DNA from: a virus | Length of the DNA: 32,366 nucleotides | Strand: one strand, 5' to 3' | Virus record (IMG/VR): IMGVR_UViG_3300032267_000329 | Span: 1 to 32,366 of that record | In this document: positions 24,148 to 32,366 of the stretch, piece by piece | Layout of the letters: every line of letters begins with the position of its first letter | Position numbering within the stretch: the stretch's first letter is position 1 | Position numbers and translations under genes: made by a program | The notes under the pieces: model-generated | Database searches by the model: none | Told to the model about the DNA's origin: nothing | Seen by the model: the letters and a program-made list of their open reading frames with translations, nothing else

Positions 24148-25962
24148 TTATACCAGCTGGGAGTCTAAATATCTGACTGAGTAGGCCGTATTGTCTTCTC
24201 CAGATACGCTTTCGGATAGGCTTATTCCTGGGTCGGATATGGCTTTAATGTTGTTTGAGCAATAAAGGTTATAGTTTTCTATTGCCTCTGTCTCAGTAAA
24301 AGCACTTGGATATAGAGCTATGTTGCTATATGTATTATTAAGTCCATATTGAGTGCCCGCCTGATTTTGATTAAATTTAATATTGGTGGAGCTACTTGAT
24401 AGGACCAGGATAACGTGATGGAAAAGACCTGTTGTGAAAAATGTTGATATGTTAGTACTAGAAGTTACGTTCACTCCATTTACATATACTGCAGATATCC
24501 CAGAAGATTGAACTACGCCAGGACTGGTCCATTTGAAATCGGAGGTATTTGATGAAAACAAAATATTGCTGGTTCCGTTTGGCTTAAAAAATAATTCAAC
24601 TGTTCTTGATGCATTTGGAGTGTCTACCGAAAACCCACGTCCATCAATCATTGTTAATCCATTATAAGAGTTTTGTGATTTTACTGGGTAGTTGTAATTT
24701 CCCAAAGCATAGTCGTGGGCAGAATAAATTCTTGAACCACCATTATCTGAATAAAAGTCTTTATCAGAATACATGTCAATTTCTAATTTATCAAAATACG
24801 GTAAATCAAAAGAAGCGTCTGCGGTTGTCATTGTGACTCGTATATCTAAAATACTACTTTGTAAATTTTGATTCTTATTGTAATATGGAAGAGGAGAATT
24901 ATTGTTACAAGTTACCCACGGCTGTCCTGGGACCTGAACTTCTACCATTATGTTTTTTACATCTTGTCCATAAGATATGGTAGAAGACTGTATATTCTGT
25001 GGATTACTGACATAGATTCTATCTGTAAAAGAAAATGTTTTTGACTCAATACCCGTGGATTCTTTAAAATATATTCTATTATTTATTGAGTCGTAATATG
25101 TGTTATCTGTTAATAAGTCTTCAAAATTTTTAACCCCAGGGTACCTGTAAGATGCTATTGGCTGTATTGTCACAGAGTTTAATGAAAAAAATACTCCGTT
25201 TTTTGGATAAACAATCTGCGAGTATTTTCTTTCTTTGTACCCAGATACATAGTGAGATCTAACCCTGGACTCTTCAATTTCATAATTATAAAAAGCAACT
25301 CCATCAATGATGAAATTTTTATTTAAATTAGACGGGCCAATTGCGGGTGAAAAAATTGTATTCACAAATTTAAATCTATTTAAAAATGTTTTTTCTTTTA
25401 CTAAGTATCCATTCAAGTACAAACTAATTTTGTCTTTTGAGAAAACTCCGACTGCATGGATTACTTGATTCTTAGATATCTTGTAATTAACATAATTTAA
25501 AGCATTAACCTTAAAAACAACATTTTCATTTTTATAAAAAATTCCAATTTGATTAGATGAATCTGCAACTATTGGATACTCTAAAATATCTGTAGGGTCT
25601 GGTTTAAACCAAGCCTCCACGGAAAAAGCGCTATCTGGGTTTTTGTTTGTCGCTATTCCTAGTGCCTTTAACTTAATATTAGAGGTTGATTCAATAAGGG
25701 TTCCTCTTACCCCACTATTAATTATGGGCATTAGCTGCATTGATGAGGATTGTATTGCATATCCGTCTGAACCATTTCCAGAATAATCAATAATTGGTAG
25801 ACCGCTGATTGCTGCATAAGATACACCATTGTCTTTTAAATCTTGGTAAGTGCTATAGGTATTTTTTAATATTGTATAATTAGTTACTTCACCAGATTTT
25901 ACTTCATCTAGAAGGTAAAAAGATAAAGGATAGTCTTGCAAGACAGTATACTTGTATGACAT
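24148..25962 (-). CDS. Double LamG (concanavalin-like) virion protein
   Basis: 604 aa, with GAGG eight bases before the ATG. Residues about 80-240 form a LamG-like jelly roll (F-S-V-E-A-W-F-K-P, I-S-L-Y-L-N-G-Y-L-V, D-G-V-A-F-Y-N-Y). A second lies at about 455-580 (R-T-V-E-L-F-F-K-P, A-V-Y-V-N-G-V-N-V, then F-T-E-T-E-A-I-E-N-Y). The middle is beta-rich. Phage LamG proteins are usually surface lectins that bind host or environmental glycans. It follows the collagen/S74 fibre with a three-base gap, so the two are likely co-expressed and may form one appendage. Its place upstream of the portal is unusual for a tail fibre; it could decorate the capsid instead. Confidence 0.8.
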   Translation of the reverse strand: MSYKYTVLQDYPLSFYLLDEVKSGEVTNYTILKNTYSTYQDLKDNGVSYAAISGLPIIDYSGNGSDGYAIQSSSMQLMPIINSGVRGTLIESTSNIKLKALGIATNKNPDSAFSVEAWFKPDPTDILEYPIVADSSNQIGIFYKNENVVFKVNALNYVNYKISKNQVIHAVGVFSKDKISLYLNGYLVKEKTFLNRFKFVNTIFSPAIGPSNLNKNFIIDGVAFYNYEIEESRVRSHYVSGYKERKYSQIVYPKNGVFFSLNSVTIQPIASYRYPGVKNFEDLLTDNTYYDSINNRIYFKESTGIESKTFSFTDRIYVSNPQNIQSSTISYGQDVKNIMVEVQVPGQPWVTCNNNSPLPYYNKNQNLQSSILDIRVTMTTADASFDLPYFDKLEIDMYSDKDFYSDNGGSRIYSAHDYALGNYNYPVKSQNSYNGLTMIDGRGFSVDTPNASRTVELFFKPNGTSNILFSSNTSDFKWTSPGVVQSSGISAVYVNGVNVTSSTNISTFFTTGLFHHVILVLSSSSTNIKFNQNQAGTQYGLNNTYSNIALYPSAFTETEAIENYNLYCSNNIKAISDPGISLSESVSGEDNTAYSVRYLDSQLV

Positions 25963-25965
25963 GTC

Positions 25966-27066
25966 TTACGCCTCTTCTAGTGTTTTAACTCTCGCCGTAA
26001 GCTCTTGCACTGCCTTAATGAGCGGAGCAATAAACTCTTCATATCGTAATGCTTGTTCTGATTCTGGATTGGATTTATCTATTAGCACCCAGCCACCAAA
26101 ATCTACTCCTGAATTTTCTAATGCTTGTTTAACTTCTTGTGATATTAAGCCCCAATGTGTTCGTGTTCCTGCAATTGAATCTCCTTCTGGAGTTACAGAT
26201 CCTTCAATAAATTTATAACTTACTGGCCTTAAATCATTAATAAAATTTAAACCTAAAGATGAATCCAATATATCAGTTTTTAGTCTTAAATCAGATGTGC
26301 TAATTGTTCCTGTATTAGAATAAATTGTTTTCCAGAATTTATTTGAAGAAACTCCATTTGGCACATCAGCTGGTTGTCCAATTGAATATAAATTGTTTGC
26401 TAGCGGATACCAATTTGAATTTACTCCGTATGCAGATGAAGTGGGAATGTTTAATGATATTGTCCCAGGTATCGGATCAATAATTGGTGTATCGCCTGCT
26501 GGGCCTTGTACTCCCTGTGCTCCTGTTGCTCCAGTTGCTCCTCTTGGAATTGTAAAAGCAAATACTGCATTTGTAGAAGTGCCAGTATTTGTAACTGAAG
26601 CATTTGTTCCAGCCGTGCCAGTAGTGGTAGTTCCAATTGCAAGTGTTGTAGGTCCTGCTGGTCCTTGTGCTCCTGTTGGTCCTTGTGGTCCTGCTGGTAA
26701 AACTAAATTTAAAGTTTGAGATGGGCTAGTTCCAGAAATTGTAGCTGCTGCAGAGGATCCGCTTGTGACTGATCCTATTGATAAAATATTTGAAGGACCC
26801 GCTCCACCTACAACTCCATCGATTCCTCTTGGTAAAGTTAAATTAAGAATTGCGGCAGATGCTGTTCCTACATTTGTAACGGCTGCTGGAGTAGAAGCGC
26901 TTACCGTGGAAACAGTTCCTATAGTAATTGTTCCTGATGGCCCCTGTGGCCCTGGATGGGCGTCTAAATAGGCATCTACGTCTGCTGCTAGATAAGCCAG
27001 ATCTCTTGGTACGTCTGGGGTATCTGAGTAGACTGGGTATCTAAAACCTTTTCCTGTTGTAGTCAT
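25966..27066 (-). CDS. Collagen-like fibre with S74 intramolecular chaperone
   Basis: 366 aa. After about 40 residues come three cycles of a short beta module (I-G-T-V...N-V-G-T...L-T-L-P-R-G) joined to Gly-X-Y triplets (for example G-P-Q-G-P-T-G-A-Q-G-P-A-G-P). From Ser258 an S74 chaperone domain follows (S-D-L-R-L-K-T-D-I, W-G-L-I-S-Q-E-V-K), ending in a short coiled coil. Such proteins form trimeric fibres that cut off the chaperone. Prolines sit mostly in the X position of the triplets. The domain is paralogous to that of the large left-end fibre. It is the first gene after the oxygenase array, with a leaderless-type promoter only 20 bases after the last oxygenase stop. Confidence 0.9.
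   Translation of the reverse strand: MTTTGKGFRYPVYSDTPDVPRDLAYLAADVDAYLDAHPGPQGPSGTITIGTVSTVSASTPAAVTNVGTASAAILNLTLPRGIDGVVGGAGPSNILSIGSVTSGSSAAATISGTSPSQTLNLVLPAGPQGPTGAQGPAGPTTLAIGTTTTGTAGTNASVTNTGTSTNAVFAFTIPRGATGATGAQGVQGPAGDTPIIDPIPGTISLNIPTSSAYGVNSNWYPLANNLYSIGQPADVPNGVSSNKFWKTIYSNTGTISTSDLRLKTDILDSSLGLNFINDLRPVSYKFIEGSVTPEGDSIAGTRTHWGLISQEVKQALENSGVDFGGWVLIDKSNPESEQALRYEEFIAPLIKAVQELTARVKTLEEA
26221..26257 (-). repeat. Copy B of the DNA repeat shared by two S74 genes
   Basis: Matches 253-289: 12 bases at 26221-26232 and an exact 22-base match at 26236-26257, with a gap of three bases in both copies. Confidence 0.75.
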
Positions 27067-27086: not shown

Positions 27087-27740
27087 TTATTTAGAGTATA
27101 TATGAGCTGGGCTCATCCATCTAGTACCGCTTGTTATTTTTGTAACCTCATGGATATACGGCTCTTGGGATGGGAAAATAATTATACTACCAGCCTTGGG
27201 TTTAATCCTAATGTTTTGATTTTTAAAATTAATCTCTCCGCCTTCGTAATCATCATTAATATATGCAACTAGCGAAAACGCAAGAGAATTATGCCCATCT
27301 TGTCCATCAAAATGAGGACCCATTGATTGACCAGAATTCCATTTTTTTATTAAAATGCCCTTAAGGTTTAGCGAATAATTTTCTTTATTTAATCCATTTA
27401 ATTTTAGGTATCTATCTGCACACATTTCAAATGCCGTTTCAAACTCATTAGATATGTATAGAACTTTTTTATCAATTAAGCTAATATTTTTAGTTGATTT
27501 AACAACATGAGTATCAATTTTTTTAGTTGCTCCATAAACTAAAGAGCTGTCATCACTTGCTGTCCATGGCTCCCACTTAGATATTCTGTTGTAAGACTCT
27601 GGCTGATCATCAATATACTCTATGTGATTTTTTAGTTCAGAGGGAAAACTTAATGCGTTTTCAAAATAAAAAATTTTGTCTTTCTGAATAGTTAATTTAA
27701 ACATGTGAAATTGCTCAAATCCTACTTCGTTATTATTCAT
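27087..27740 (-). CDS. 2OG-Fe(II) oxygenase, prolyl-4-hydroxylase-like (array member 5)
   Basis: 217 aa; overlaps the preceding oxygenase by eight bases, with AGAGGG before the ATG. The double-stranded beta-helix core shows the iron ligands His143-x-Asp145 (P-H-F-D-G) and His197 (Y-I-H-E-V), and Arg207 ten residues later at the position that binds 2-oxoglutarate. The signature I-N-D-D-Y-E-G-G-E-I lies between them. The enzyme should use O2 and 2-oxoglutarate to hydroxylate a substrate. Family members act on peptidyl proline or on other substrates; the target here is unknown, but the next genes encode a collagen-like fibre and a LamG protein. Confidence 0.88.
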   Translation of the reverse strand: MNNNEVGFEQFHMFKLTIQKDKIFYFENALSFPSELKNHIEYIDDQPESYNRISKWEPWTASDDSSLVYGATKKIDTHVVKSTKNISLIDKKVLYISNEFETAFEMCADRYLKLNGLNKENYSLNLKGILIKKWNSGQSMGPHFDGQDGHNSLAFSLVAYINDDYEGGEINFKNQNIRIKPKAGSIIIFPSQEPYIHEVTKITSGTRWMSPAHIYSK

Positions 27741-28497
27741 TTGTGCCCTCTACTTCGTAGGCTGGATAGAGTTCTGATTTTGGAGTTTGTCTTAAACCCT
27801 TTTCTCTTATTTCATTCCATTCTTTTTGTTCAACCGCTTGTCCATCTCTAACTTTTTTAAGCTCAATGGCCCATTCATCTCTAAGTTCCTGTGGATAATC
27901 AGACTCTTCTCTGTCGTCCCAGAAAGAACCTAAAGTGTACCTAACTTTCTTTTTTACCACAGTGACTTCATGCATATTGTCAAAACCTCCAGCAAAAGTA
28001 GCGAGTAGTCCAACTTTTGGAACAATGGTTAAATCAGTCTTTGTAAAATTTAATACCCCGCCTTCAAAATCATCATTTAGATAAATAAAGGTTGCGTATC
28101 TACTTCTAGTAAACGCTCCCGCAACTCCGTCGTTACTTGTATTATCTGAGTGAGGGTGTGCAAATGCACCTGGCTCCCATCTTTGTGAATGAAAGCTAAT
28201 TCTAGACATTTGTTTTGGATCTTTTCCAGCCATGTCGGCTGTAGCAACAATAACTCTTTCTCTTAGACTATCAAAGAAATCTCCTGGTAGGCCACAAGAT
28301 ATTACATCTGGATCATCTAGGTCTGGCATTCTTCCAGAATAAGACTCATAGAAAGATATTTGTTTCCATCCCCACTCATTTTTTGCTTCTTTGATTTTAA
28401 TTAGATTTAGAATTGCATTGCATTCTTGTTCCGTCAAAAAGTTTTCATGAGTAACAATATCATCACGGTGCCTTGTTATTACTATTTCTTTGGTCAT
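27733..28497 (-). CDS. 2OG-Fe(II) oxygenase, prolyl-4-hydroxylase-like (array member 4)
   Basis: 254 aa; GGGAG upstream and a three-base gap from the previous gene. An N-terminal helix (T-E-Q-E-C-N-A-I-L-N-L) of the P4H type precedes the core. Iron ligands are His116-x-Asp118 (P-H-S-D-N) and His176 (M-H-E-V); Arg186 in K-V-R-Y-T-L-G-S-F-W is the likely 2-oxoglutarate residue. L-N-D-D-F-E-G-G is at 140-147. A charged C-terminal helical tail of about 60 residues sets it apart from its neighbours. It is the member whose end most resembles bacterial P4H proteins. Confidence 0.9.
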   Translation of the reverse strand: MTKEIVITRHRDDIVTHENFLTEQECNAILNLIKIKEAKNEWGWKQISFYESYSGRMPDLDDPDVISCGLPGDFFDSLRERVIVATADMAGKDPKQMSRISFHSQRWEPGAFAHPHSDNTSNDGVAGAFTRSRYATFIYLNDDFEGGVLNFTKTDLTIVPKVGLLATFAGGFDNMHEVTVVKKKVRYTLGSFWDDREESDYPQELRDEWAIELKKVRDGQAVEQKEWNEIREKGLRQTPKSELYPAYEVEGTNE

Positions 28498-28500
28498 ATA

Positions 28501-29331
28501 TTACATACTCCCTTGATTGTATGGATTATCTTTTCTTGATTTATATGTATCAAAATCTACTGGAGTATCGTCTACCAAATAAACCATGTTTCTAGGATTA
28601 TCATAAGCAAGTCGATCAGCTTCTTTTTTAAACCAGTTGTGAGCTCCAAATCTTTTTTGTGATGCTAACCATTCTGGGCTTCCGTCGTATGGCACCATCA
28701 CGAAGTTTCTAACAAAGAATTTTTCTTTTCCTTTAATAATCTTAACGCCATGGAAATATGGAACATTTGAAGGAAATACCAAAATATCTCCCGCTACTGG
28801 CTTATGGTTAATTAATTTTCCATCAACATAAAACTCAATGTCTCCTCCATCATAATCATCATTGATATACATGGTACAGGTTATAAAAAATTTATTTCCT
28901 GGCATATCTTTTTCTGAAATAATATAGTCTGTATGATACTGCATGGTCATATTATTTGCCATGCTGTCTACATTTGGATTATACTTAGAATATGAGCATC
29001 CGCTGAATATCCAATCTGGTGGCAAAACAATACCTTGTTTTTGAATATAATCTGCTATTACCTTGTCATAGGCGCTCTCTACTTCTTCAATAAAATTCTT
29101 TTCTTTAATAAACATTGGATCGTTTATTAAATCTTTAGGGTAGTTTGATGCATGCTTTTTTTGAGTATATGTACCAAAGTGTGCCCATGGGTCCCAAGTA
29201 TTTAGAGCATACTTACCTTCAGATGTTTTTTCTGATTCATTCATTACATCATACATCTGCTTTGGGTCTTTTAATACGTTACGATAAACATAAATTTTTG
29301 GAAAAATTTCTACGTATTCTAATTCACTCAT
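28501..29331 (-). CDS. 2OG-Fe(II) oxygenase, prolyl-4-hydroxylase-like (array member 3)
   Basis: I place the start at ATG 29331 (276 aa): it forms an ATGA overlap with the previous stop and has GGGAG ten bases upstream. An in-frame ATG at 29367 would add 12 residues inside the neighbour. Iron ligands are His133-x-Asp135 (Y-H-T-D-Y) and His194 (F-H-G-V). Lys204 stands ten residues later where other members have Arg; animal collagen P4H also uses Lys there. I-N-D-D-Y-D-G-G-D is at 156-164. A C-terminal tail of about 60 residues is of unknown function. Confidence 0.88.
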   Translation of the reverse strand: MSELEYVEIFPKIYVYRNVLKDPKQMYDVMNESEKTSEGKYALNTWDPWAHFGTYTQKKHASNYPKDLINDPMFIKEKNFIEEVESAYDKVIADYIQKQGIVLPPDWIFSGCSYSKYNPNVDSMANNMTMQYHTDYIISEKDMPGNKFFITCTMYINDDYDGGDIEFYVDGKLINHKPVAGDILVFPSNVPYFHGVKIIKGKEKFFVRNFVMVPYDGSPEWLASQKRFGAHNWFKKEADRLAYDNPRNMVYLVDDTPVDFDTYKSRKDNPYNQGSM

Positions 29332-30005
29332 GGCTGTTTTTCTCCCGTATGTTTTTGAATCGTCCAAAAAAATGGCGACGTAAATCTATTTCCTGATTTT
29401 ATTGGTCTTACCCCGTGTGTGTAATACATGTCTCCAGGGAAGAAATATGCTGCCCCAGCTACTGGCTTAAATTCAATTCCATGTTGTGGGAAATATAATT
29501 CTCCACCCTCATAGTCATCATTAAAATAAAACAATCCCGCAAGGTCATACCAGGGGAAATCATTTGCTCTACCCTTTTCTGGTCCAGAGTGAAATTCTTT
29601 ATCTGCATGAGGTTCTTGTCTTGCGCCAACAGGCCATCTAACAATTGCGGGGCCAGTTTCTTTTGCGTCAACATTAAAGAATGCATCCACCTCAATTTTT
29701 AGTCTTGCAATCATGCTGTATATTAAATCTAAAATTGTTGGATCTGAAGCCATTAAAGAATTGTAAGTACAAACTCTATTTTCCCAAATAGTATGGTCAT
29801 ATAGAACTAGGCCGTCGGCATCTCTATGTGTTTCTGTTATGTCCCAAATTTTATTGTTTAATGAAAAACTCATTAACCTATCAATTTCTTCTTGTGTTAA
29901 AAAATTTTTGATTTCTATAATATTGTCTATTGAATTTCCAAAAAATCCAGAAGGCGTTATTGACTTGGGTCTGTTATCGCCCCAATCATTAGCTACTTTT
30001 TGCAT
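29328..30005 (-). CDS. 2OG-Fe(II) oxygenase, prolyl-4-hydroxylase-like (array member 2)
   Basis: 225 aa, with GGTG five bases before the ATG and a promoter at 30023-30051. An N-terminal helix (T-Q-E-E-I-D-R-L-M-S-F) precedes the core. Iron ligands are His133-x-Asp135 (P-H-A-D-K) and His197 (T-H-G-V), with Arg207 in S-G-N-R-F. F-N-D-D-Y-E-G-G-E-L is at 161-170. The G-V-R-P-I-K-S-G-N-R-F segment parallels member 1 (A-M-P-V-K-S-G-M-K-F), so these look like duplicates. The substrate is unknown. Confidence 0.9.
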   Translation of the reverse strand: MQKVANDWGDNRPKSITPSGFFGNSIDNIIEIKNFLTQEEIDRLMSFSLNNKIWDITETHRDADGLVLYDHTIWENRVCTYNSLMASDPTILDLIYSMIARLKIEVDAFFNVDAKETGPAIVRWPVGARQEPHADKEFHSGPEKGRANDFPWYDLAGLFYFNDDYEGGELYFPQHGIEFKPVAGAAYFFPGDMYYTHGVRPIKSGNRFTSPFFWTIQKHTGEKQP

Positions 30006-30022
30006 ATTATCACCATATACTC

Positions 30023-30051
30023 ATTTTACCATTATTCAAGACTATTGACAA
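30023..30051 (-). promoter_or_regulatory. Internal promoter within the oxygenase array
   Basis: -35 TTGTCA (30051-30046), 17-base spacer, extended -10 TGGTAAAAT (30031-30023), then a 17-base stretch with GGTG before the ATG at 30005. This is the most complete promoter in the window by -35, spacing and -10. It overlaps the end of the DUF6065-like gene. Confidence 0.7.
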
Positions 30052-30733
30052 ACAGTCTTATAGTTTTAACCTGATGGCTACCAATGCTTTCTTTTTTATG
30101 GTCTACGGCATCTCTATAGAAATTAGACCATACCCCGCTTGAATTAAGCTTCATAATTTCATTTGAGTACTCTGATTCATTATAGGGTGCTTTTGGCAAT
30201 CCTTCTAAATTTTTAAAATTAATTTCAGAATTTTGTAAATCATTTAAATTAATAGGAATCATGCTTGTAATTGGAGTACCAGCTTTAATTGTTATTATTT
30301 CATTTGGCTTGGTGATCATCCATGCCACTGGAATGTCAGTTGGAAAAAATGAACTACTAATTATAGTTGTAAATGGAGTGGCTCCATCAAAAAATAGGTT
30401 AGGAACTGGCATACAAAGAATACTGATAGATTCATCTGTAACCAGTCTTACCCCTGTTTTAAAACTTATAGTTGCGTTTGCTCTTCCAGCATAGGCATAT
30501 TTTTCTCCAGACAGTATCTTTACGTGTTCGGCATTGCTATCATTAATTCCATCCCAAATAAAGGATATATCTTCTGGAAAAGAAATTGACCATCCTAATT
30601 GATTTGTTAAACCTACTGGAAAACATTTATAAGCATGAGACTCCCAGGTGTTATCCATCCAGTCTCGCTTAATAGTTAAAGGTTTAACAATTCCTAGATC
30701 TGGTTGTGTTTGGTAAGCATCAATTTTATGCAT
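30032..30733 (-). CDS. DUF6065-like protein inside the oxygenase array
   Basis: 233 aa; eight-base overlap with the oxygenase before it. The start resembles DUF6065 as I remember that family: R-D-W-M-D near residue 23, A-Y-K-C-F-P-V-G-L-T-N near 34, then G-W-S-I and F-I-W-D-G. The middle is beta-rich (I-S-I-L-C-M-P-V-P-N-L-F-F) like a cupin or jelly roll. There is no HxD iron motif, so it is not a sixth oxygenase of this type. The family has no function I can state. Its place between oxygenases suggests a shared substrate or a partner role. Confidence 0.65.
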   Translation of the reverse strand: MHKIDAYQTQPDLGIVKPLTIKRDWMDNTWESHAYKCFPVGLTNQLGWSISFPEDISFIWDGINDSNAEHVKILSGEKYAYAGRANATISFKTGVRLVTDESISILCMPVPNLFFDGATPFTTIISSSFFPTDIPVAWMITKPNEIITIKAGTPITSMIPINLNDLQNSEINFKNLEGLPKAPYNESEYSNEIMKLNSSGVWSNFYRDAVDHKKESIGSHQVKTIRLFVNSLE

Positions 30734-31439
30734 TTGAATTTCGGCCAGTTGCAGAATCTTCTTGTACCCACTTGCTTCTCATTTCAACAAATTCTTGTCT
30801 ATGGGCATGATCGTTGTAGTCCAACATTGTTACCAATGAAAATTTCATTCCTGATTTTACTGGCATTGCTCTATGGGAAAATAGATAAGTTGATGGGAAA
30901 ATATATAAATCTCCTGCTGTAGCCTTAATGTTTAAATTAAGCTTTGGAAAATATAGCTCTCCGCCTTCGTAATCATCGTTTACATATGCAACTAGTGAGA
31001 CGGTGGCGCTGTAAGAAAATCCATGATCTGCATGCTCTTGAAAGTGTTGTCCTTCACCGTATCTGATGCAGTTCATCACTTCCCAATAATTCATCTTTAC
31101 GTTGTACATACGGCAATAATCTTCTACCGCAGGATCTTGTGATTTTTTTAAATCTTGCCATAAAGATGAAACTAACTTTTCTGTTTGTGTATTTGGATTT
31201 TTTATTTCACCAACTTTTATATCTTCACAATTTCTATAATCTGGTATTTTTTCGCTGTAGCCAACAAATCCAAAGGTCCATTTATATCTAGTATCTCCTT
31301 CGGCTTCGGCTGATTCGCCTATCTTGTTTAATTGCTCTATAACAGATATGTCTTTTTTAATTGCATTTCTATATACCCAGACGCCTGGGAATAGCTGCTC
31401 TTTTGATGTAAAGCCGTATTGATTATCAATATTATTCAT
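30726..31439 (-). CDS. 2OG-Fe(II) oxygenase, prolyl-4-hydroxylase-like (array member 1)
   Basis: 237 aa, first gene of the array. Iron ligands are His136-x-Asp138 (E-H-A-D-H) and His189 (S-H-R-A), with Lys199 (S-G-M-K-F) at the 2-oxoglutarate position where three members have Arg; Lys is also the residue in animal collagen P4H. V-N-D-D-Y-E-G-G-E-L is at 153-162. No Shine-Dalgarno: an extended -10 with a -35 at 17 bases ends exactly six bases before the ATG, so a leaderless mRNA is predicted. The gene directly upstream encodes the Pro-Pro-Gly-containing Hint protein. Confidence 0.88.
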   Translation of the reverse strand: MNNIDNQYGFTSKEQLFPGVWVYRNAIKKDISVIEQLNKIGESAEAEGDTRYKWTFGFVGYSEKIPDYRNCEDIKVGEIKNPNTQTEKLVSSLWQDLKKSQDPAVEDYCRMYNVKMNYWEVMNCIRYGEGQHFQEHADHGFSYSATVSLVAYVNDDYEGGELYFPKLNLNIKATAGDLYIFPSTYLFSHRAMPVKSGMKFSLVTMLDYNDHAHRQEFVEMRSKWVQEDSATGRNSNA

Positions 31440-31493: not shown

Positions 31494-32366
31494 TTAAGCT
31501 ATTGTTAAAGTTGAATTAACAATAAACCAAGGGTTGCCCTCGGTCCTAATATCATAAACTCCAGACTCATTTTCATCAATTTCTACAGATGTGACTACTG
31601 TTTCTGTAATTATAGCATCTGGCCCAATGCCAATCAAAATGTCTCCAATTTGGATATCTTCTGAATTTTTATAAGTAATGCCATTTTCACATTTAATAAA
31701 TATTGGATGTTCTGTTGAGAAGTTTTTACCTAAGTTGTTGAATCCTACTAGTTTAGACATTTTATATTCTACTGATTTAACAAATGTTTGTACAAACTGC
31801 ACGGACCCAGATATTGAAGGAGAAGTTCTGTTTTCAGATATAGATTGAAGGTCTATAAAGTCATTGCTTATAGTTACTAGTGCATCTCCTATTGAAACAT
31901 CTTTGGCCTTTATCCAGCCGCTTGATGCGTAAACTAATGAGTCTGGTGCTAGGCACTTACCCTTAAATCCTGGAGGTGCAAAGAACACTGGAGGAAATGA
32001 TGGTCCTTTGAACAATGGTGGAAAGAATGGCGGAAAGTATGGAGGGAATCCTGGAGGTTGAAAGAACACTGGTGGAGCAAAGAATCCTGGGGGTGCAAAA
32101 AAACTTGGTGGTGAAAACACTGTAGTTACTTGATTTGACGAATTAGAATAATAAGAGTCACCATTACTGTTGGTTGCTTTTACTGTATATGTTTGACTTG
32201 TATTTCCTGTTTCGCTTAAGGTATAATTAAGAGATAATGTTGAATATGTTGGACCATCTGAGGATAACAATGTGTAACCAGTTATTGCAGATCCACCATT
32301 TGCTGGTGCTGACCATTCAACATAATCTTGATTAGTTTGTGCTGTAGCAATTGGGGGTCCTGGCTT
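31494..32366 (-). CDS. Fn3 - Pro/Phe-rich linker - Hint (intein-like) protein, 5' end cut off
   Basis: 290 aa visible; the frame is open to the right edge, so TTG at 32270 is not the true start. An Fn3 domain (W-S-A-P-A-N-G-G-S-A-I-T-G-Y) comes first, then a linker at 31956-32114 of repeating Phe/Pro with several Pro-Pro-Gly. A Hint domain of about 147 residues follows. It starts C-L-A-P-D-S-L-V-Y (Cys codon 31955-31953), has block B-like S-T-E-H-P, and ends F-I-V-N then S-T (Asn codon 31517-31515). Only six residues follow the Asn, and no homing endonuclease is present. Such domains cleave, splice or transfer their N-terminal part. The protein is probably a virion or surface protein processed by its own Hint domain; Val replaces the usual His before the terminal Asn. 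Confidence 0.82.
   Translation of the reverse strand, partial: KPGPPIATAQTNQDYVEWSAPANGGSAITGYTLLSSDGPTYSTLSLNYTLSETGNTSQTYTVKATNSNGDSYYSNSSNQVTTVFSPPSFFAPPGFFAPPVFFQPPGFPPYFPPFFPPLFKGPSFPPVFFAPPGFKGKCLAPDSLVYASSGWIKAKDVSIGDALVTISNDFIDLQSISENRTSPSISGSVQFVQTFVKSVEYKMSKLVGFNNLGKNFSTEHPIFIKCENGITYKNSEDIQIGDILIGIGPDAIITETVVTSVEIDENESGVYDIRTEGNPWFIVNSTLTIA
31956..32114 (-). repeat. Pro/Phe-rich repeat (coding)
   Basis: Tandem imperfect 18-30 base units encode F-F-A-P-P-G, F-F-Q-P-P-G, F-P-P-F and similar. Pro-Pro-Gly occurs three times, the sequence context classically hydroxylated by collagen prolyl 4-hydroxylases. Confidence 0.75.

Follow-up and report, generated by a model that had tools for sequence, protein, structure and literature searches.

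A conserved array of prolyl-hydroxylase-like 2OG-Fe(II) oxygenases beside an F/P-repeat tail protein in tailed phages

The 32.4 kb IMG/VR contig analysed here at its full length (32,366 nt; hereinafter the window) carries five 2OG-Fe(II) oxygenase genes, A–E, which belong to a cassette that also comprises a DUF6065 gene and an upstream Fn3-type tail protein with an F/P-rich tract (R). A standing gene order, retained catalytic residues and a relationship to prolyl hydroxylases characterize this cassette. Since the array adjoins the F/P-repeat tail protein, we propose that the enzymes modify these repeats, and regard a dedicated multi-hydroxylase module acting on this protein as a reasonably probable explanation.

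The oxygenase array and its conservation

The rest of the window codes for a portal, a head maturation protease, a major head protein, a head-tail adaptor and a tape measure protein. The portal is at best 56–58% identical to those of cultured phages, and the top matches come from Streptomyces phages such as BillNye, which makes an actinobacterial host likely; these phages appear to derive mostly from freshwater samples. The features of the array and its surroundings are as follows:

31494..32366, minus strand: Fn3-type tail protein R, cut by the window edge; F/P-rich tract, then a Hint/intein-like domain; proposed substrate
31965..32120, minus strand: F/P-rich tract VFSPPSFFAPPGFFAPPVFFQPPGFPPYFPPFFPPLFKGPSFPPVFFAPPGF, read from the sequence
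30726..31439, minus strand: 2OG oxygenase A; PF13640 1.5e-12, 48.8 bits; HAD...H...K
30032..30733, minus strand: DUF6065 protein; PF19541 3.8e-29; dUTPase-like fold predicted
29328..30005, minus strand: 2OG oxygenase B; PF13640 6.2e-7, 30.7 bits; HAD...H...R
28501..29367, minus strand: 2OG oxygenase C; PF13640 8.2e-8, 33.5 bits; HTD...H...K
27733..28497, minus strand: 2OG oxygenase D; PF13640 1.3e-8, 36.1 bits; HSD...H...R
27087..27740, minus strand: 2OG oxygenase E; PF13640 1.1e-12, 49.1 bits; HFD...H...R
25966..27066, minus strand: collagen-like fibre with a Peptidase_S74 chaperone (Pfam); a neighbour with no tie to the array

A LamG/concanavalin-like tail protein (24148-25962) lies between the fibre and the portal; it is ~27-60% identical among relatives, in which the adjoining genes are conserved.

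A first-pass annotation made from the letters of the window had read five neighbouring genes as 2OG-Fe(II) oxygenases and proposed a PF13640 profile search, in which all five (30.7-49.1 bits) lie above the curated cut-off of 27 bits; an independent six-frame search recovered the same five genes. The residues to which it had drawn attention are likewise present throughout: each of A–E has the HxD motif, the distal His and an R/K exactly 10 residues after it, and 5/5 possess the N-D-D-[YF]-[ED]-G-G motif. Within the ortholog sets (13-16 sequences per gene) the catalytic residues are invariant, the sole variation being an R/K exchange in E, and by these alignments the conservation of motif and catalytic residues is far beyond chance. 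The flanking Fn3-Hint protein and collagen-like fibre are also as described there, and the coordinates bear out that the genes overlap or nearly touch. The wording "five in a row" was inexact in that the span holds six genes, the DUF6065 gene separating A from B–E; because starts and stops overlap or lie within ~26 nt of each other, these six look like one translation unit. For gene C a TTG start was listed, and the true start is probably an internal ATG at 29331. Two features had escaped the annotation: the gene for DUF6065 and, in the Fn3 protein upstream, the (FFxPP)n tract, which is the feature that tracks the array.

Looking for the same array in related phage contigs, as had also been suggested, we found the cassette conserved in more than 100 IMG/VR contigs. 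Gene order at 80 portal-sampled loci (the portal patterns matched more than 600 IMG/VR stretches) and 80 DUF6065-sampled loci gave a standing order R-A-DUF6065-B-C-D-E, where R is the Fn3-type tail protein with the F/P tract, upstream of A. Lineage-specific additions include duplication of A, duplication or triplication of E and duplication of DUF6065, C is missing in one group, and elsewhere the cassette holds four to about eight 2OG oxygenases. A third and independent sampling used enzyme B, which is more conserved than A, C, D and E; all 43 of its loci with enough upstream sequence contained DUF6065, began with R-A (43/43) and had the core A-DUF6065-B (43/43).

A tree of 134 sequences groups A, B, C and D, each across loci, into well-supported ortholog clades; most E sequences likewise fall into a single clade, and further 2OG genes from these phages branch between and beside the A–E clades. 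The window enzymes are 20-27% identical to the first sequence of their alignment. By this phylogeny each of the five families is an ortholog group of its own, and an ancient one. The earlier idea of an array expanded by duplication thus holds in a deep sense only, as separate orthologous clades rule out a recent tandem duplication. That old paralogs have kept separate identities argues for separate roles.

Relationships of the enzymes and of DUF6065

We ran one profile per ortholog family against the sequences of the entire PDB and found the nearest solved relatives of A–E to be the Bacillus anthracis prolyl 4-hydroxylase (P4H) or prolyl 3-hydroxylase 1 (P3H1); P4H, P3H and LH enzymes are all among the solved relatives, and because prolyl hydroxylases dominate the solved relatives of PF13640, "nearest solved" is a biased pointer. 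Family A matched the B. anthracis P4H best (3itq, 3.5e-8), B the nearest solved prolyl hydroxylase at 9e-6, D P3H1 (1.5e-7) and E P4H (7.6e-7; top sequence match 3itq), and C gave a weak match to P3H1 (0.017). Structure prediction, another step proposed in the first-pass annotation, was carried out for B as the only enzyme folded, and there it agrees with the expected fold: the AF2 model (pLDDT 84.9) adopts a double-stranded beta-helix, and its top Foldseek matches are P4Hs, the nearest being PBCV-1 vCPH, the B. anthracis P4H, the Chlamydomonas P4H (including its (Ser-Pro)5 complex, 3gze) and PHD2. Judged by their profiles, A–E are prolyl-hydroxylase-like, weakly so for C, and B is also prolyl-hydroxylase-like by its predicted fold.

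The DUF6065 protein scores 102.3 bits against PF19541 (curated cut-off 26.6). Its AF2 model (pLDDT 88.5) has dUTPases as best Foldseek matches (E ~2e-4, TM to target ~0.65); we rejected an assignment as a dUTPase, as the fold is similar but no dUTPase Pfam model matches at E <= 0.1. Fusions of DUF6065 occur in alphaproteobacteria, with a Cupin_8/JmjC-type domain in two genomes (L426:1471-3168, L429:571-2220) and with SapC in one (L428:691-2340); they provide a lead on DUF6065 outside phages. The long N-terminal "fusions" of L430 and L436 appear to result from frame read-through and not to be domains, and an actinobacterial home for DUF6065 was considered and set aside (only 1/296 genomes). Elsewhere in the same phages as the tail cassette, we observed the order RecA - 2OG oxygenase - DUF6065 - PD-(D/E)XK nuclease (L408:501-4630, L406, L410), which constitutes a second 2OG/DUF6065 pair in a non-structural setting. 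Given the JmjC fusions and this second pair beside RecA, DUF6065 accompanies hydroxylases generally, beyond the tail cassette.

The fold of DUF6065, dUTPase-like with no match to that family, and the stoichiometry of five or more paralogs beside one repeat protein would also suit array proteins that are former enzymes and now have a structural or chaperone role, binding the F/P tract in tail assembly. We consider this highly improbable: across divergent phages all five families keep their iron ligands and the 2OG-binding Arg/Lys (with the R/K exchange in E), as is expected only under selection for catalysis.

The F/P tract and its association with the array

In array loci, the gene directly upstream of A codes for an Fn3-type protein that terminates in a long F/P tract. 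The usual repeats are of the (FFAPPG)n, (FFPP)n or FFPFFPP type, and in one close relative the DNA of the tract is an 18-bp tandem repeat. The window copy of R gives sub-threshold Pfam matches (Intein_splicing 0.0051, fn3 0.061), and fn3 lies above cut-off in three relatives (L022, L145, L130). The tract ends the protein in many relatives and is followed in others by a Hint/intein-like domain (Pfam sub-threshold), whose putative self-cleavage, if active, would leave the tract C-terminal there too. This Intein/Hint-like domain lies at 31497-31955 in the window and is present in many, not all, relatives; its TxxH block has the His in the window (TEHP) and a Gln in others (TQPI), so that its activity may vary among relatives. 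FFPFF-type tracts occur with arrays that have no C; a tie between enzyme C and the FFxPP sub-type is suggestive and we do not claim it, as C-less arrays with FFxPP exist (L201, L221).

The array and the tract are strictly associated. All 43 B-sampled loci, each with DUF6065, have an F/P-tract ORF at most 5.5 kb upstream of B. Among portal-sampled contigs with at least 8 kb of upstream sequence, the tract is found in 14/14 scorable array-bearing loci versus 0/16 array-less ones; in 13 of the 14 it lies inside the locus and in L033 just outside (= L401:1603-2568), and L034, whose contig ends too early, was left unscored. No FFxPPxFF was detected in five array-less contigs scanned whole. Conversely, a search of IMG/VR with FFxPPxFFxPP alone, the enzymes not being used, led back to arrays: of the tract ORFs followed by 3 kb of sequence (the adjacency threshold), 52/61 have two or more array genes in that interval, against 70/225 for other long ORFs of the same loci. 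Several of the remaining tract ORFs are second tract proteins several kb upstream of an array (L418, L419). Among twelve tested contigs with the tract away from an array, DUF6065 is present in all five of at least 36 kb and in none of the seven shorter ones. Along the portal tree at least three changes of array state can be counted, each one shared by the tract; although the counts are absolute, their statistical weight is limited, because there are only three independent contrasts (sign test p 0.25). A bacterial origin of the F/P repeat was rejected: among the matches listed from bacterial genomes, the pattern is scattered, mostly single, shadow-frame or low-complexity, and no array was found beside tract ORFs.

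The neighbour on the other side of the array offers a different substrate. The fibre at 25966-27066 directly downstream has GXY repeats (GPQGPTGAQGPAGPT and GATGATGAQGVQGPAGDT), and with P4H/P3H/LH among the solved relatives the array might hydroxylate this protein, much as collagen is hydroxylated by prolyl and lysyl hydroxylases in animals and giant viruses. However, collagen-like ORFs also occur in many array-less loci (e.g., L035, L039, L041, L049), a collagen-like GXY ORF went undetected in five array-bearing loci (L064, L066, L069, L079, L083), and more distant array loci have no relative of the window fibre by BLAST. With no association, and a GXY protein not obligatory alongside the array, we rejected the fibre as the best-reading substrate and regard its hydroxylation by the array as rather improbable. 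The first-pass annotation's dedicated modification module for virion proteins accordingly stands as far as conservation beside virion genes and prolyl-hydroxylase-like enzymes are concerned; the neighbouring collagen-like fibre as an obvious target is not supported.

The adjacency of array and tract could also reflect cassette transfer, with the enzymes having various targets in the virion or the host, such as further tail proteins, proteins of the host surface, nucleotides or sugars, and the F/P tract hitch-hiking in a swapped tail cassette. The array is indeed gained or lost as a cassette, more 2OG genes are found elsewhere in these phages, some next to RecA, and in cyanophages a part in 2OG/nitrogen control and DNA repair has been considered for 2OG genes (PMC3037559). 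Yet hitch-hiking is disfavoured, and this reading as a whole unlikely, since it leaves unexplained why array-less relatives keep the Fn3 protein without the tract and why DUF6065 is present in every long contig tested with an unlinked tract. In the array-less relatives L035 (929-3265) and L052 (1501-3147), the Fn3 protein has a Gly-rich C-terminal tract, not F/P; these ends in place of the F/P tract resemble modular swapping of low-complexity tail ends. Other 2OG genes of these phages lie far from any tract, some of them near RecA, indicating that phage 2OG enzymes also do other jobs. Additionally, relatives of ~110 kb carry three to six 2OG genes in second clusters well away from the tail cassette (L402:3805-9456, L403:526-9323), and one product of these clusters (L403:526-1677) is a fusion of an Asp/Arg beta-hydroxylase and a PF13640 protein.

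A proposed hydroxylation module and its implications

Returning to the preferred reading, a dedicated module for the F/P-repeat tail protein, we infer that the tract is the substrate, that it is modified and that several residue types are hydroxylated. A–E would hydroxylate the (FFxPP)n tract of the upstream Fn3 tail protein, and other F/P-tract proteins of the same phage might be modified too, with DUF6065 assisting as a presumed non-catalytic partner (scaffold or substrate presenter). Hydroxylation would precede virion assembly, or the joining of the Fn3 protein to the tail. The prolines of PP would probably be hydroxylated first, and each enzyme family may have its own repeat position or context, such as either Pro of PP, the residues of the spacer or perhaps Phe/Tyr. 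A very hydrophobic tract could in this way become a hydroxylated, soluble or adhesive tail element for host contact; this adhesion role, like the chemistry and the site specificity, we infer for the modified tract. Tentatively, we suggest that such a cassette might represent a multi-enzyme modification class new in phages, in which five to eight hydroxylases, encoded in order and dividing the labour among them, would together with a dUTPase-fold partner turn (FFxPP)n into poly-hydroxylated, extensin- or mussel-protein-like tail material.

PBCV-1 vCPH (5c5t/5c5u) and the B. anthracis P4H (3itq) share the double-stranded beta-helix 2OG fold and the HxD...H...K/R site; these are single enzymes in their structure records, whereas the phage array is ordered and includes a DUF6065 gene, and its repeat partner is (FFxPP)n on an Fn3 protein as against collagen in that comparison. 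Mimivirus encodes collagens together with its own collagen-modifying hydroxylases, L230 and others (PMC9546862), and so resembles the present phages as a virus with both repeat-rich proteins and 2OG hydroxylases that would modify them; however, it is a giant eukaryotic virus with a collagen GXY substrate, and here a tailed phage has another repeat and a single cassette with at least five paralogous hydroxylases. Cyanophage 2OG-Fe(II) oxygenases (phrog_61), with several copies per genome (table in PMC3037559), belong to the same Pfam family, and A, B, D and E match phrog_61; those enzymes, however, are discussed for 2OG levels and DNA repair, and in INPHARED enzyme B has matches only 23-31% identical, mostly from Synechococcus phages. 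No INPHARED record, and hence no cultured phage in that collection, matched DUF6065. The alphaproteobacterial fusions (L426, L429) physically join DUF6065 to a JmjC-like hydroxylase-type domain, but of an oxygenase family other than PF13640, and the bacterial stretches examined showed no PF13640 array beside DUF6065. The open-licence literature gave us no account of an F/P-repeat tail protein accompanied by an ordered array of hydroxylases, no paper combining prolyl hydroxylase, bacteriophage, tail fiber and hydroxyproline, and no paper naming DUF6065.

2OG oxygenases are common in aquatic phages, and their genes are known there but unexplained, the proposals being nitrogen control or DNA repair (PMC3037559, PMC10611076). 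In the present case the genomic evidence itself indicates a specific substrate, a repetitive protein, along with a fixed set of enzymes, which renders substrate, regiochemistry and purpose directly testable. The cassette also gives a first lead on DUF6065. Should the proposal prove correct, a hydroxylated structural polymer would be among the products of phages, and F/P peptides could be hydroxylated in bacteria with the cassette as a ready-made toolkit.
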